Assembly (NCBI GenBank): GCA_028284635.1
Contig: JANQRJ010000011.1
Span: 1 to 64,000, forward strand
From: Pelagicoccus sp.
GTDB lineage: Bacteria > Verrucomicrobiota > Verrucomicrobiia > Opitutales > Opitutaceae
DNA: 64,000 bases
Direction: 5' to 3'
Made by a program: the position numbers and the translations under genes
In this document: positions 10,854-60,871 of the stretch, in pieces
Layout: every line of letters starts with the position of its first letter
Numbering within the stretch: position 1 is the first letter of the stretch
Notes under the pieces: model-generated
What the model saw: only the letters and a program-made list of their open reading frames with translations
What the model was told of the DNA's origin: nothing
Database searches by the model: none

Positions 10854-11075
10854 GCCGCAAGGCGCAAGCGCCAGCCCTACAAAACGTTGCAATGTAGGGT
10901 CGCCGCTTGCGGCGTACCGCAGCTGTTCAATTCGTGAACGTTTTGCAGACGCAGTCTCCCCTGAGAAACTATCCAAATAAGTCGCTCAAGGTAGGGACCG
11001 ATCGCCGAGCGGTCCGCGTCATGCAGATCAATTCTCCGACGGACGCGGTCCCGCTTTGCGGGATCTGCGCTACGG
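10854..11075. repeat. Composite of family-7 and half family-1/family-2 repeats
   Basis: At 10854-10915 the arms gcgcaagcgccagccctac and gtagggtcgccgcttgcggc face each other across a short spacer, related to the repeat at 22608-22691 but with the arms turned outside in. At 10988-11018 half of a family-1 unit (gtagggaccgatcgccgagc) follows. It then passes into half of another unit (ggacgcggtcccgctttgcg) ending gcgctac. The halves do not pair with each other, so this looks like a recombinant junction between families. It fills the space between the parvulin remnant and the dehydrogenase gene. Confidence 0.6.
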
Positions 11076-14400: not shown

Positions 14401-14476
14401 GGAGGGCAATGCTCCGTCATTGCCGTAGAGCCTGCAGGGGAATAACCGACGCGGCAACGACGGAGCGTTGCCCTCC
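14401..14476. repeat. Family-5 inverted repeat (ggagggcaatgctccgtcat)
   Basis: The arms ggagggcaatgctccgtcat and the inverted cgacggagcgttgccctcc enclose a spacer that also holds a paired attgccg/cggcaac. It lies directly after the receptor stop codon. Near-identical copies occur inside the nested array at 32654-33226. Here it may serve as a 3'-end hairpin for the receptor transcript. Confidence 0.75.
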
Positions 14477-19437: not shown

Positions 19438-19744
19438 TGTTCTGCTTTCCTAAGTCGAGGCCAAGCATGCAACTTGCGCGTGTCCGCTATGGGTGCGTTG
19501 CATATAGGTTCATGAGCTTATATATGGAATGAAGAACCAGATCATGGCAACTGCGGAATCCGTGAATGGAGAAAGAAAAAGCAACAAAATTTAAAATGCG
19601 TTCCAGTAAGAATAAACCGCAGGGCTAACTGTCGAACCAATCGGTCGCTCCCGATTCAGATCGGGACCGACCCACCTATGTGCGAGTGAACAAACGAAAA
19701 ATGCTCTGAAAAGCGTACGATAAGTCGAAGATACTGCTTTTGAG

Positions 19745-19817
19745 GTAGGGACCGATCGCCGAGCGGTCCGTGTTGCAGGATCCATTCTCCGGGGACCGCT
19801 CGGCGATCGGTCCCTAC
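19745..19817. repeat. Family-1 repeat, perfect 25-bp arms
   Basis: The left arm gtagggaccgatcgccgagc... (19745-19769) is exactly reverse-complemented at 19793-19817. The loop gtgttgcaggatccattct is shared with the copy at the window start. It ends 18 bp beyond the stop codon of the glycolate oxidase operon and could cap that transcript. The other bases of the 398-bp gap 19438-19835 hold nothing I can identify. Confidence 0.88.
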
Positions 19818-19835
19818 CCTTTCCACATATTGGAT

Positions 19836-22718: not shown

Positions 22719-22900
22719 ACCGCCAATGGCCGCGAATAGCTGCCTGAAGAGGTAGGGACCGATCGCCGAGCGGTCCGCGTTGGTTTGGTTTCTTCAAGGC
22801 TCTGCGGACCGCCCGCCGATCGGTCCCTACCTTGAGTGACTTACTAGACACTCTCTTAGGAATTATATAATATTCGCGATCATCGGCGGTCACTAGCGGT
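22719..22900. repeat. Family-3 repeat split by a nested family-1 repeat
   Basis: The outer arms accgccaatggccgcgaat (from 22719) and the matching inverse ending cactagcggt (to 22900) are family 3. Between them, 22752-22830 is a complete family-1 element with gtagggaccgatcgccgagc and cgatcggtccctac arms. One repeat has inserted into another, which shows that family 1 moved after family 3. With the preceding element it fills the 376-bp gap between glcD and the GntR gene. Confidence 0.75.
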
Positions 22901-31459: not shown

Positions 31460-31491
31460 CTGCCAAGCTGCCTCCGCGACCGTACCGGTCT

Positions 31492-31550
31492 GTAGCCGAA
31501 GTCGAGAGACTTCGGTCCCCCTTCAACCAAAGTCTTTCGACTTCGGCCAC
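31492..31550. repeat. Family-4 inverted repeat (gtagccgaagtcg...)
   Basis: The arms gtagccgaagtcgagagact and agtctttcgacttcggccac pair with few mismatches. Sister copies are at 37695-37794 and 53418-53480. The rest of the 385-bp gap to the next gene (31460-31844) becomes strongly AT-rich from about 31675 to 31790, which may hold the promoter of the TLDc gene. Confidence 0.75.
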
Positions 31551-31844
31551 AATCCTGCATTGCGGACCCGGGCTAAGGCTCTGCGTCACGAAAGAGATTT
31601 CCGGGCAAGCAATAGCGCCCAAGGGAAAATACTCGAAGCCCACTCCCCTAGTAGAAAACCACCCCAACTCCATTATTTTCGTATCAGTTTTTCCCCTACA
31701 AATACATAATATCGAATATTATATCATACGAAATCGACGTTTTTTACGTCACCAATCTTTCAATACCATGTTAAAACGAGTACGATATATAAAAAGGAAT
31801 ACCGCCCGAAACTCGTCGGCGCTATATTGCTTCTCGAAAACAGG

Positions 31845-32618
31845 ATGTCTCCCAAACGACAGACTTCAAAAAGACTCTCTGCCACGCTTCTCTGCTGCGT
31901 CTTGCTCGCCGCAGCCTGGCCCGGCTTGGCCAAGCCGGAGCAAAAAGGCTTGGAATCGCAACTGCTCGCCTGGCTTCCCGACAGCCAGGCTCGACTCAAC
32001 CTCGCCTTCGCCTACAGGCCCGGTAACGCAGAGGAAAGCAAGAGCTCCAAGGACCTCCGCAAAGCGACGGACCGCCTGCGAGCCACTCTGACCCTGCTAA
32101 CCATCCGTACCAGCCCCGGAGCCGAGCCGCGCGTCATCGGCGGCTACAACCCCCTCCCCTGGAAGTCGCGTTTCGGTCGCTACCAACGCAACCCCGGACT
32201 CTACATATTCGACCTCACCAGCGAAGAACGCTGGTACCGGCAGACCAAGCCCGCTGGATTTACCTTCAAGCGACCCAGCGAATTCGCCCTCTCGTTTGGC
32301 CGAGGCGATCTAGCGATTCTCTCCGATCTCAAGACCGGCGCAGCCCGCGACTTCGACTTCGCCCCGCCTTCCGACAAGTCCATCCTGCTCGGCAAGGCCG
32401 GAACCTTCACCATCGAGGCCATAGAGGTCTACGAAGTCATTCGCCACGAGCCGCCGCCCCTTTCCAATACGCTCTTCGCCGCCCAAAACTCCAGGATATC
32501 GCCCTCTGGCGGTTCGCCCCATTCCGTACCCGACAGCGGAAGCCTCCCACTCGAACTGCTAGCGATCGCCGCTCTCGCGGCAGCCGCCAGACGTATCGTC
32601 CGCAAAAAAGCCAGCTAG
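31845..32618 (+). CDS. Secreted TLDc-domain protein with VPDSG-type sorting tail
   Basis: From the ATG at 31845 the protein has 257 residues. A signal peptide covers about residues 1-30 (LSATLLCCVLLAAAWPGLA). The central part, RVIGGYNPLPWKSRFGRYQ through FALSFGRGDLAIL to a late IEAIEVYEV strand, has the GGY...PW and FG.GDL pattern of TLDc domains, best known from eukaryotic oxidation-resistance proteins. The C-terminus VPDSGSLPLELLAIAALAAA followed by RRIVRKK is the VPDSG form of the PEP-CTERM signal: motif, membrane helix, basic cluster. It is recognised by an exosortase that is not in this window. The product is therefore probably processed and anchored or released at the cell surface. The TLDc assignment rests on motif reading. 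Confidence 0.75.
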   Translation: MSPKRQTSKRLSATLLCCVLLAAAWPGLAKPEQKGLESQLLAWLPDSQARLNLAFAYRPGNAEESKSSKDLRKATDRLRATLTLLTIRTSPGAEPRVIGGYNPLPWKSRFGRYQRNPGLYIFDLTSEERWYRQTKPAGFTFKRPSEFALSFGRGDLAILSDLKTGAARDFDFAPPSDKSILLGKAGTFTIEAIEVYEVIRHEPPPLSNTLFAAQNSRISPSGGSPHSVPDSGSLPLELLAIAALAAAARRIVRKKAS

Positions 32619-32653: not shown

Positions 32654-33226
32654 GTAGCGCGGAGCTTTAGCCCGCGACCACAGAGAATAGAGTCTGCAAT
32701 GCGGACGCGGTCCCGCAGGGCGCATATGCATCAACTTAAGCCTAAAAGCGTTGCGCTGGAGGGCAATGCTCCGTCATTGCCGCGGAGCCTACAGGAGGAA
32801 TAACCGGTGCGGCAACGACAAGCGTTGTCCTCCTAAATGAGGCTTCTTCCGTTAAGGTGACGCCTATGCGCAGAGCGGGACCGCGTCCCCGTCGTTTCTT
32901 ATCCTCATCGTCTTCTTTATCCTCATCTTCATCCTGGCTGGGATGAGGATGAAGATGACGAGGGGGATGATGGGGGCTAATTGCGGACGCGGTCCCGCTC
33001 TGCGCATAGGCGTCAACTTAAGCCGAAAGGCGGTGGGCTGGAGGGCAATGCTCCATCATTGCCGCGGAGCCTACAGAGGGAACAACCGGTGCGGCAACGA
33101 CGGAGCGTTGCCCTCCAAAGGATGCTTCTCACGTTAAGTTGACGCATATGCGCAGGGCGGGACCGCGTCCGCGTTGCGGGCTCTATTCTCTGCGGATGCG
33201 GTCCCGCCCTGCGGGATCCGCGCTAC
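32654..33226. repeat. Nested palindromic repeat array, about 570 bp
   Basis: Units sit inside each other around a centre near 32940. Outermost are gtagcgcggagc... and ...ccgcgctac. Within these come agagaatag/ctattctct with ggacgcggtcccgc arms. Then come two family-5 elements (ggagggcaatgctccgtcat) in the same orientation, at about 32759-32835 and 33041-33118. Innermost, ctatgcgcagagcgggaccg pairs with cggtcccgctctgcgcatag around a cctcatc/gatgagg hairpin. The whole segment from TLDc stop to ATPase stop (32619-33305) shows no gene. A transcript could fold into a multi-branched structure. I infer successive insertions of repeat units into repeat units. Confidence 0.75.
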
Positions 33227-33305: not shown

Positions 33306-34436
33306 TTAGTCGAGAGTTGAAAGCCAGATCTTGTAGAAGGGGTTTTCTATCGTCCAGTTCCTGTTTCGCTTTCTGATTATATCCATTTTCACGAGCTGAT
33401 TGGCTGCTCTAGTTATAGTGCCGGTGACTTTGAGTCCTGTTCTTTCCTGAAAATCGATACCGTAGATTGAAGCTCCTCCGAGGGTGGCAATGCCTCGAGC
33501 TAACTTGAGTTGTGTTGGCGAAAGGGATTCGGAAATCTTCTCGAAGGATCCTTTTTCGGTCTTTATTATATCTTCGATTGCCGCGATTGCTTGACGATCG
33601 TCGACTTTCCGTTCGCCGACGGCACGCGTTGCGTTCCAGGCGTAGTTACATATCTGCTGAATGTCGCCTGGTGTCGTTATTCCCATGTCGGAGGCAGTCT
33701 TGCTAAAGCTGTCCAGCATTTGGAGCCTTCCTCGTTTGAAGAGTGAGGCCATGAAGCGCCAGAAATCCTTTTGGTCAATGGGGTCTACGGATATCGCTTG
33801 GGCTGACTTGTAGAAAGGGGACTCTGGAGAGGTGAATATTTCTATCATATCGCGCCGATCGCTTCCTGAAAAGATATAGGGAATTTCGGAGTGGAACTGA
33901 ATGGCGCTCCTCATGGCGGCGATCGTCTTTGCGGAAGGGGCGGCCTTCTTCACCGCTTGGAATTCGTCGAATAGAACGACGATCTTTCGTTTTTTGGATA
34001 GTTGTTCTATGCCTTCGAGAGCTATTTCTATGCTGGTACAGTCTCTGCTTTTCGCAGAATCCAGGGAGAGCGAGAAGGTGGGATTCCCCGTGGCTGGGTC
34101 ATAGGACATGGTGGGTCTGAGTCGGGATAGAGCCTTTAGCGCGGAATCTATAAAAGCTCCCTTGCTCGCTGCTTTGAGGGTAGCCTTTCCAATAGCGTTT
34201 GCGATCTCGGCGGAATCCGAGCAGAGCAGGAAGTCCGCGAAAATGAGGTGGCGACCTTTGAGATTGGAACAGACGTTGTAAACGAGCGATGTCTTTCCTA
34301 CTCGTCGCTCTCCTTGTATAGCAGTGTTTTGGCCCGATCTTATGTTGTCCGACAGCTTCGACTCCAGGTCTTGCCTGGGAAGGTAGCTCTCGCCGGAAAC
34401 CACTTGCCCGTATACGAATGGGTTCTTTTTTCCCAT
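33306..34436 (-). CDS. AAA/STAND-type ATPase with C-terminal winged helix
   Basis: A 376-residue protein. The P-loop is GERRVGKTS (about residues 42-50), and Walker B is KIVVLFDEFQ. A sensor-like serine follows in FSGSDRRDM, and a winged-helix-like C-terminus (LKLARGIATLGGASIYGI ... NQLVKMDIIRKRN) closes the protein. This is the layout of the archaeal-type ATPase family (often called ATPase_2 or AAA_35), frequent in mobile and defence-like loci but of unknown biochemical role. The gene is AT-richer than its neighbours and lies alone between the nested repeat array and proC, which suggests acquisition. No partner nuclease or effector is adjacent. Confidence 0.82.
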   Translation of the reverse strand: MGKKNPFVYGQVVSGESYLPRQDLESKLSDNIRSGQNTAIQGERRVGKTSLVYNVCSNLKGRHLIFADFLLCSDSAEIANAIGKATLKAASKGAFIDSALKALSRLRPTMSYDPATGNPTFSLSLDSAKSRDCTSIEIALEGIEQLSKKRKIVVLFDEFQAVKKAAPSAKTIAAMRSAIQFHSEIPYIFSGSDRRDMIEIFTSPESPFYKSAQAISVDPIDQKDFWRFMASLFKRGRLQMLDSFSKTASDMGITTPGDIQQICNYAWNATRAVGERKVDDRQAIAAIEDIIKTEKGSFEKISESLSPTQLKLARGIATLGGASIYGIDFQERTGLKVTGTITRAANQLVKMDIIRKRNRNWTIENPFYKIWLSTLD

Positions 34437-37499: not shown

Positions 37500-37694
37500 C
37501 AGGGCCTTGTATGAACGCTATCGTGACGGAGGAAAACAAATTGTGTCGAGATCGGTCACTTTACGTAAGGCGAGAGTGGATTGCGTGGAGGGCAACCGAA
37601 GTCGTCAAGCCCGATCGCTTCTGGCCACTGAGGGGCTTGGAGCGTGGCTTGTGAAGTGTGGGACAGATGGGACTTCGGAGGTTGCTTGTGCCTG

Positions 37695-37794
37695 GTAGCC
37701 GAACTCGCGAGAGTTTGGTCCTGTGCCCGTCATCCAAACTCTTGTGCCTCGCGATGTCGCTTCGCTCGATACGAGTTCGGCTACTGAGAGCTGC
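37695..37794. repeat. Family-4 inverted repeat, divergent copy
   Basis: gtagccgaactcgcgagagt and the inverse ending acgagttcggctac form the outer arms. An inner pair (gagtttgg and ccaaactc) and a cgcgatgtcgcttcg hairpin fill the spacer. It is the only recognisable structure in the 358-bp gap 37500-37857 between folD and the secreted-protein gene. Confidence 0.65.
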
Positions 37795-53352: not shown

Positions 53353-53417
53353 GCGACTGAGTACCGAGTGGTCCGACTGAAAAGATGGAGAATCCGCAAA
53401 TGCATCGTTTCTCGCCT

Positions 53418-53480
53418 GTAGCCGAAGTCGATAGACTTTGGATGATAGGCGGAGGTCCAAAGTCTATCGACTTCGGCTAC
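53418..53480 (+). repeat. Family-4 repeat with perfect 25-bp arms after rho
   Basis: The arms beginning gtagccgaagtcgatagact (53418-53442) and their exact reverse complement (53456-53480) enclose a 13-base loop. No T-run follows, so it is a strong hairpin that could protect or end the rho mRNA and not a textbook terminator. The other family-4 copies lie at 31492 and 37695. Confidence 0.85.
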
Positions 53481-58297: not shown

Positions 58298-58398
58298 GTA
58301 GCGCGGAGCTTCAGCCCGCGTCCGCATTGGAGGCTCTATTCTCTGCCCTTCGACAGGCTCAGGGTCTGCAACGGACGCGGGCTGAAGCTCCGCGCTAC
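58298..58398. repeat. Family-2 repeat with nested module
   Basis: The outer arms gtagcgcggagcttcagccc and gggctgaagctccgcgctac enclose gcgtccgcat/tgcaacggacgc. They also enclose a tctattctctgcccttcgac module that occurs inverted in the family-7 element at 22608-22691. It lies between the sulfotransferase and the mannonate-dehydratase-like gene. Confidence 0.78.
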
Positions 58399-59980: not shown

Positions 59981-60871
59981 CTAGCGCTTTCTTCGGACCA
60001 GCGAACGAGCGAAGAGAACGGCAAGGAGGCTGAGCATCCCTATGGCTCCTGGCGCCCCATCTGGGACTGGGGTTATAATCAGACGGATGTCGGCACGTCT
60101 TCTGATATCGAAAGCCACGTCGCTGAAGCTAGATCCGTCATCTAGGGTGCCGGAGATCAGTCCGCTCGACTGCGCTATATCCCCTGGGCCGACCGGCGTG
60201 CCATCGATGCTGAACTCGGAGCCCCGAAGGACAATCAGGCTGCGGTTGGTAGCTCTTAGAGAAGATCCGAGCGATCCGCCGCTGATATCGATAATCCCGT
60301 CGTCGAATGCTTCGATATCTTCGCCGATCGAGCCGCCGAATATCTCGATCAAGCTTCCCCCGAAAGCTTCCACGTCATCGGTAATCGATCCACCGAATAT
60401 TTCGATTAAACTTATTCCGGTAGCGATTACGTCATCGCCAATCGTGCCGTCGAATATCTCGATAAAGCTCGCTCCGAATGCTTCCACGTCGTCCGCAATA
60501 GATCCGCCGAAAACGGAAATGGTGGAGAGGAAAAACGCTTGAAGGTCGTCGCCAAGCGTGCCGTCGAATATCTCGATCGTGGCGAAGCCGTCCGAGACCA
60601 CGTCCTCAGCAAAGGTTCCATCGTTGATGGTGGCTGATGAGAAGTCGCTGACGTAAAGGGAATCGTCTTCGGAATCAGAGCCTGTTATATTTGTCCCTGT
60701 GTTGAAGGTGACGTGTGTAGGGTCACCTGCAGGAAACGAGTCGAACACATAGACGAAGTCGTTTATTTCCGAGTCGATAACGTGGCTCGAGCCATCTTCA
60801 AATATGACGACAGCGTTTGCTTGAGTGGCAACAGCTATCGGTAGGAGGAAATAGCGGGTCAGTTTCTTCAT
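59981..60871 (-). CDS. Surface protein with 19-residue repeats and VPDGA sorting tail
   Basis: A 296-residue protein with a signal peptide ending near TQANA. Residues about 105-215 are five or so 19-residue repeats of the form IFGGSITDDVEAFGGSLIE, which should fold as a beta-solenoid of short strands and turns. They are encoded by 57-bp repeats visible in the DNA. The end PVPDGAPGAIGMLSLLAVLF plus ARSLVRRKR has the motif, membrane helix and Arg cluster of PEP-CTERM/VPDSG-type exosortase substrates. The product is probably a surface or matrix protein whose repeat number can vary. A terminator follows at once, so the gene is monocistronic. Confidence 0.85.
   Translation of the reverse strand: MKKLTRYFLLPIAVATQANAVVIFEDGSSHVIDSEINDFVYVFDSFPAGDPTHVTFNTGTNITGSDSEDDSLYVSDFSSATINDGTFAEDVVSDGFATIEIFDGTLGDDLQAFFLSTISVFGGSIADDVEAFGASFIEIFDGTIGDDVIATGISLIEIFGGSITDDVEAFGGSLIEIFGGSIGEDIEAFDDGIIDISGGSLGSSLRATNRSLIVLRGSEFSIDGTPVGPGDIAQSSGLISGTLDDGSSFSDVAFDIRRRADIRLIITPVPDGAPGAIGMLSLLAVLFARSLVRRKR

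Follow-up and report, generated by a model that had tools for sequence, protein, structure and literature searches.

A nested palindromic array in a Pelagicoccus genome, very probably composed of REP/REPIN hairpins and IS4-type MITEs inserted at hairpin tips

The array and its REP/REPIN layers

The array lies in a marine Pelagicoccus genome (4.57 Mb assembly, 104 contigs, 96% complete), in a 64,000-nt stretch of contig C87 that is referred to here as the window. It occupies positions 32654-33226, where two genes converge, 31827-32618 (+) on one side and 33306-34436 (−) on the other, the latter of the AAA/ATPase_2 type. Nothing connects the ATPase gene, whose adjacency the original prediction pointed out, with the array. 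The arms named in that prediction are all present, with GTAGCGC/GCGCTAC outermost at 32654 and 33226, and inverted arms at 32672-32739/33134-33201 (68 nt, 85%), 32852-32888/32985-33021 (97%) and 33151-33172/33192-33213 (95%). The proposed check of DNA folding also bears the prediction out: as single-stranded DNA, a 601-nt region folds at −225.5 kcal/mol, where shuffled versions average −116 (z = −24). Nesting around a common centre was predicted as well, and here one correction applies: the two 146-bp elements (Table 1), the family-5 elements of the prediction, are direct rather than inverted repeats (87-89% alike, spacing 282 nt) on either side of a palindromic REPIN, which makes the layout in part more like a composite transposon than a concentric nest.

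We propose that the array is very probably made of two kinds of mobile DNA nested within each other, REP/REPIN hairpins and IS4-family-derived MITEs in the tips of hairpins. As read from the sequence, there are three layers: outer GTAG-headed REP/REPIN elements, two 146-bp MITEs, and a MITE-REPIN-MITE unit at the tip of a ~36-bp hairpin.

Table 1. Features of the array (window coordinates)
Feature	Position	Strand	Basis
REP1 (GTAG head) GTAGCGCGGAGCTTTAGCCCGCG, leftmost outer element	32654..32676	+	Genome-wide matches; same REP flanks RAYT gene
Host hairpin, left arm, pairs with 33157-33192	32681..32716	+	Fold of joined empty site
Left 9-bp flank CGCAGGGCG, putative outer target duplication (loop AGG + 3 bp of stem per side)	32714..32722	.	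Identical to 33151-33159
MITE copy 1, 146 bp, IS231-like ends CATATGCATCAACTTAA / CATAGGCGTCACCTTAA	32723..32868	+	End consensus of PMC2266710
Palindromic core repeat GGAGGGCAATGCTCCGTCATTGCCGC... within MITE 1	32757..32834	+	Genome-wide pattern count
Inner REPIN interior, 136 bp: CGCAGAGCGGGACCGCGTCC ... hairpin TTATCCTCATC... ... GGACGCGGTCCCGCTCTGCG	32869..33004	.	MITE-free relative in L089
MITE copy 2, 146 bp, orientation as copy 1	33005..33150	+	
Palindromic core repeat within MITE 2	33039..33117	+	
Right 9-bp flank CGCAGGGCG, putative outer target duplication	33151..33159	.	
Host hairpin, right arm	33157..33192	+	Fold of joined empty site
REP2, inverted, CTAC foot; tip TCCCGC-CCT-GCGGGA, vacant and of the type in which MITEs sit	33193..33226	−	

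The outer layers have the features of REPIN/RAYT systems, namely a GTAG head with a hairpin, high copy number, inverted pairs and a RAYT gene flanked by REPs. The REP1 pattern GTAGCGCGGAGCTTYAGCCCGCG has 306 matches genome-wide (≤2 mismatches; reversed-pattern control, 0), with many close inverted pairs, and REP1 stands in inverted orientation on both sides of a RAYT gene (L001 1387-2220, −) that scores over the cut-off of NCBIfam REP_Tyr_transpos NF047646. REP2 has the form GTAGCGCGGATCCCGC-loop-GCGGGA..., and perfect empty tips of its type, TCCCGC-N3-5-GCGGGA, number 99 in the genome against 3 for the reversed control; their loops (AGA, AAA, AGG, GACT, GACG, CGACC and complements) are those found in occupied tips. 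Presumably, RAYT enzymes spread these GTAG-headed palindromes and thereby supplied GC-rich hairpins with loops of 3-5 nt. A transposase of the RAYT/Y1 type, as the original prediction expected, is therefore present with its flanking REPs, but it explains only the REP layers, since the tip-inserted layer has IS4-family (DDE) ends.

Several further repeats were noted. A second RAYT-type gene (L002 1339-1824, −) has one REP1 alongside and an NF047646 score just under the cut-off. A second GTAG palindrome family, GTAGGG(A/C)CCGATCGCCGAGCGG(T/G)CC, occurs at 24-58, 10988-11074, 19742-19818 and 22749-22831 of the window, and elsewhere in the genome it also hosts tip-inserted MITEs. A third GTAG hairpin family, GTAGCCGAAGTCGAGAGACTTCGG, occurs at 31490-31515, 37693-37718 and 53416-53441 of the window and at about 7900 in L081. 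At window 58298-58398, the loop region of a REP1 REPIN contains CCTTCGACAGGCTCAGGG, which may be a further case of palindrome nesting, and repeats of 57-bp period at 60261-60625 (five copies, 63-83% alike) are probably a repetitive coding region.

MITE ends and insertion at hairpin tips

The end of the 146-bp element, CATNGGCGTCAACTTAA, agrees at every specified position with CAT-------AA--TAA---, the end consensus published for the IS231 subgroup (IS4 family), whose direct repeats are 10-12 bp long (PMC2266710). Genome-wide, the inverted ends have 169 matches and the palindromic core GGAGGGCAATGCTCCGTCATTGCCG has 164 (reversed controls, 0 in both cases), and a core copy without MITE ends stands alone at window 14401-14476. 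Complete elements measure 113-362 bp, mostly 145-147 bp, and have non-coding palindromic cores. Unrelated cores are found between the same ends (versions of 113, 123, 154, 342 and 362 bp), as expected of MITEs. The 154-bp version has a TCCCGC-GACT-GCGGGA tip in its core, and locus L049 has the look of a MITE that entered a tip of this kind and was later rearranged. In L081, the 362-bp version contains a REPIN-like GTAGCCGAACTC repeat pair; a pair GTAGCCGAACTCGAAAGAGTTTGG, related to the GTAGCCGAAGTCGAGAGACTTCGG hairpin family, lies inside this MITE, so REPs also sit within MITEs. The four counts of REP1, empty tips, ends and cores answer the call in the original prediction for a genome-wide census: the modules are abundant as independent copies and are not confined to a single composite.

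Terminal inverted repeats common to the family, duplications of about a helix turn, a short non-coding body and autonomous elements with such ends all characterise this element as a MITE. Within the overall explanation, it is highly likely to be a non-autonomous relative of the IS4 family with IS231-like ends, a likeness drawn from the ends. Dozens of contigs have a terminus within the MITE, ~60-134 nt in from its end (e.g., C3:85-104, C4:64-83, C12:87-106, C54:80-99); the repeat probably breaks short-read assembly, and the true copy number is likely to exceed what can be read whole.

All 34 complete copies examined have tip flanks of the form CCCGC-loop-GCGG on both sides, where the left and right tests, each with one mismatch allowed, are passed at ~10% and ~8% of random window positions, respectively. 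Perfect direct duplications spanning the loop occur in 20 of the 34 (15 of 9 bp, 4 of 10 bp and 1 of 11 bp); among the others, two have duplications with one mismatch, three have inverted flanks and nine have unmatched flanks. The repeated bases include AGA/AGA, TCT/TCT, GACT/GACT, AAAT/AAAT, GACG/GACG and CGACC/CGACC, and the occupied host stems are of several unrelated kinds (GTAGCGCGGATCCCGC, GCGGACGCGGTCCCGC, GGTAGGGCCCGATCGTCCCGC and GCAGATCCTGATCCCGC). Because GCG is present in both host stem and element, four choices of boundary are possible. Ends of GCGCAT with a 3-5 bp duplication were considered and, after comparison with the IS231-subgroup consensus (PMC2266710), given up for CAT, the boundary that the consensus picks; the duplication is then CGC-loop-GCG, 9-11 bp. 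With this boundary, the MITE would enter the tip of a hairpin and duplicate the 9-11 bp between its TCC and GGA arms, that is, the loop and 3 bp of stem on each side. The occupied tips, the perfect duplications and the empty tips with the same loops support the original prediction of repeated insertion into hairpin tips. The 12 copies that lack a direct duplication require, we infer, later recombination between near-identical copies.

An IS4-type transposase might recognise the hairpin itself, as a cruciform or a single-strand fold, and not sequence alone, such as the symmetric TCC/GGA arms. We consider this rather unlikely, jointly with its corollary that the stem would set the cut positions and so give duplications of 9, 10 and 11 bp for loops of 3, 4 and 5 nt. 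Were it true, REPIN families would be renewable landing pads, and nests could keep growing, since each inserted element may add tips of its own (TCCCGC-GACT-GCGGGA is present in some MITE cores).

Autonomous relatives and the same end in other genomes

Two autonomous elements with related ends were found. L260, in an Ignavibacteria genome, is 1458 bp long, has the same 17-bp end as the MITE and encodes a 449-aa transposase with a YREK motif that matches the NCBIfam IS4 family NF033592 (E 4.6e-59); its duplication CGACAAGTCG lies at the centre of CCCGACAAGTCGGG. L270, the single relative found when 273 genomes from the window genome's own order were searched, is 1574 bp long, with ends CATATGCGTCAACCTAAGG related to the MITE end and a 443-aa open frame that has the YREK motif and is 37% identical to that of L260; its duplication CGCTGAGCG is at a GTCCCGC-TGA-GCGG tip. 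These relatives, with such ends and such targets, make it highly probable, within the overall explanation, that a DDE (IS4-type) transposase, and not a RAYT, drove the tip-inserted layer.

Searches with PF01609 and L260 found no transposase of the L260/L270 type with such ends in the window genome or the seven congeners searched. The window genome has no L260 homologue and a single DDE_Tnp_1 match, C50:43780, without such ends, a gene that we take to resemble IS1182; the DDE_Tnp_1 (PF01609) matches of the congeners are likewise without such ends. That no autonomous partner is found in the same assembly limits the case for present mobility of the MITE; a MITE does not require one there, and the transposase now absent from the assembly would have been supplied in the past. 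Two other candidates were discarded: L040, considered as a solo end of a large element, is only a decayed end before a sulfatase-like gene, and the open frames within the brackets L195 and L207 do not encode transposases.

A scan of GTDB genomes found the MITE end in Bacteroidota, Ignavibacteria, KSB1, Opitutales, gammaproteobacteria and other taxa, frequently adjoining CCCG-N-CGGG hairpins; in viral contigs, four exact end matches were seen but no recognisable element. In P. mobilis, MITEs with these ends, of which some share the core, sit at palindromes of other sequence (GTCGCCTC-GCT-GAGGCGAC; TGC-ATT-GCA); their duplications are mostly of 9 bp, some of them imperfect. MITEs with this end were also noted in genomes labelled Cloacimonadota, Bacteroidetes, BMS3Abin03, Chitinophagaceae and Methylacidiphilum (L178, L179, L171, L175, L246), where the targets are CC|CG-N6-CG|GG, with 10-bp duplications at hairpin tips. 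In Geosporobacter subterraneus (L183, L219, L236, L244, L245, L264), 194-bp MITEs with the same 17-bp end have 10-bp duplications, mostly AT-N6-AT, without a hairpin. Hairpin targeting is thus not universal for this end, and these MITEs offer a natural contrast for target choice.

Origin of the array and comparison with known systems

Could one system, or none, account for the whole array? RAYT genes are present, and the 146-bp element is quasi-palindromic as a whole and palindromic in its core, so that it might be a REPIN-like palindrome mobilised by RAYT, all layers having been spread by Y1 transposases. However, it has target duplications of 9-11 bp, where a REPIN/RAYT element should have none and where, to our knowledge, IS200/IS605-type enzymes make none of this length; its ends are of the IS231 type and bracket unrelated cores of 113-362 bp, and the autonomous elements bearing ends of this type code for a DDE transposase. 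We consider a single REP/REPIN system very improbable, and are equally sceptical that the array is a selected functional structure, such as a bidirectional terminator or a structured RNA. Its position between convergent genes and its terminator-like stems (4 versus 0.8 in shuffles) would suit such a role, but no Rfam family matches at gathering score, and modules dispersed genome-wide with mobile-element junctions make selection unnecessary as an explanation. The sub-threshold Rfam models on the array are nearly all eukaryotic miRNA and were taken as chance matches to hairpins.

The last step is less settled than the two-system reading as a whole. MITE 1 is flanked by CGCAGGGCG and CGCAGAGCG, and MITE 2 by CGCTCTGCG and CGCAGGGCG; the outer flanks are thus identical, and the inner ones are the two tips of one REPIN, which is found elsewhere without flanking MITEs (e.g., L089 14554-14686, 88%). 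When the composite and one flank are removed in silico, the empty site so rejoined forms one ~36-bp stem, capped by the loop AGG. We infer that two MITEs entered the two tips of one REPIN (CGCAGAGCG...CGCTCTGCG), giving a composite MITE-REPIN-MITE (32723-33150) that, using its outer ends, would then have moved as a unit to a third hairpin and entered the tip there, with CGCAGGGCG duplicated on both sides. This composite step is drawn from one locus, and, with recurrent loops like AGG, the identical outer flanks could be due to chance or recombination. Homologous recombination, through integration of a circle of one MITE plus the REPIN or through unequal exchange, has a chance only somewhat short of even of having produced the layout; it bears on this last step only. 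The two MITE copies are direct repeats, the mismatched flanks of 12 of the 34 copies genome-wide are a mark of exchange between copies, and circle integration would likewise leave identical outer flanks. Recombination needs, however, a prior single insertion at the CGCAGGGCG tip and a second event, whereas composite movement would give the same junctions in one step.

Both ingredients of the array are of known kinds. The MITE resembles the IS231 subgroup of the IS4 family and its MIC231/MITE derivatives in its CAT ends, AA at 11-12 and TAA at 15-17 (PMC2266710, PMC3913671), and, with the subgroup, shares duplications of about one helix turn and relatives (L260, L270) with a YREK motif and IS4-family similarity. 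It differs in its Verrucomicrobiota host, a review having placed the subgroup almost only in Firmicutes (PMC2266710), in its duplications of 9-12 bp and in its REP or hairpin-tip target. Specific insertion into REP palindromes is known for IS1397, ISKpn1, ISPsy8 (IS3), ISPpu9/10 (IS110) and ISRm22 (IS4) (PMC1525189); here, in contrast, the inserted units are non-coding MITEs that occur about a hundred times, have their own palindromic cores and also nest as a composite. REPINs and RAYTs have been described (PMC2817692, PMC3116915), the second account also mentioning the small dispersed repeats of Nostoc, and GTAG repeats are reported from the verrucomicrobial species Opitutus terrae (PMC3733652). 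The GTAG head, the paired inverted REPs in hairpins and the RAYT gene with inverted REP flanks agree with these systems, whereas here the REPs are also sites at which a second mobile family lands. Like the modules of the array, the Nostoc repeats are short, palindromic and mobile and nest within each other; we know of no target duplication or IS4-type ends in them. In the open-access literature searched, neither IS4-type MITEs in REP tips nor their self-nesting nor a MITE-REPIN-MITE composite had been described before, and these three are what is new here. Two unrelated mobile systems would thus be stacked, REP/RAYT repeats of the single-strand type providing the sites that a DDE-type MITE targets, which is a concrete route to complex nested palindromes in bacterial genomes. 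Furthermore, with loops of 3-5 nt, several stem families and several phyla, these insertions form a natural data set on whether a DDE transposase can read hairpin structure.
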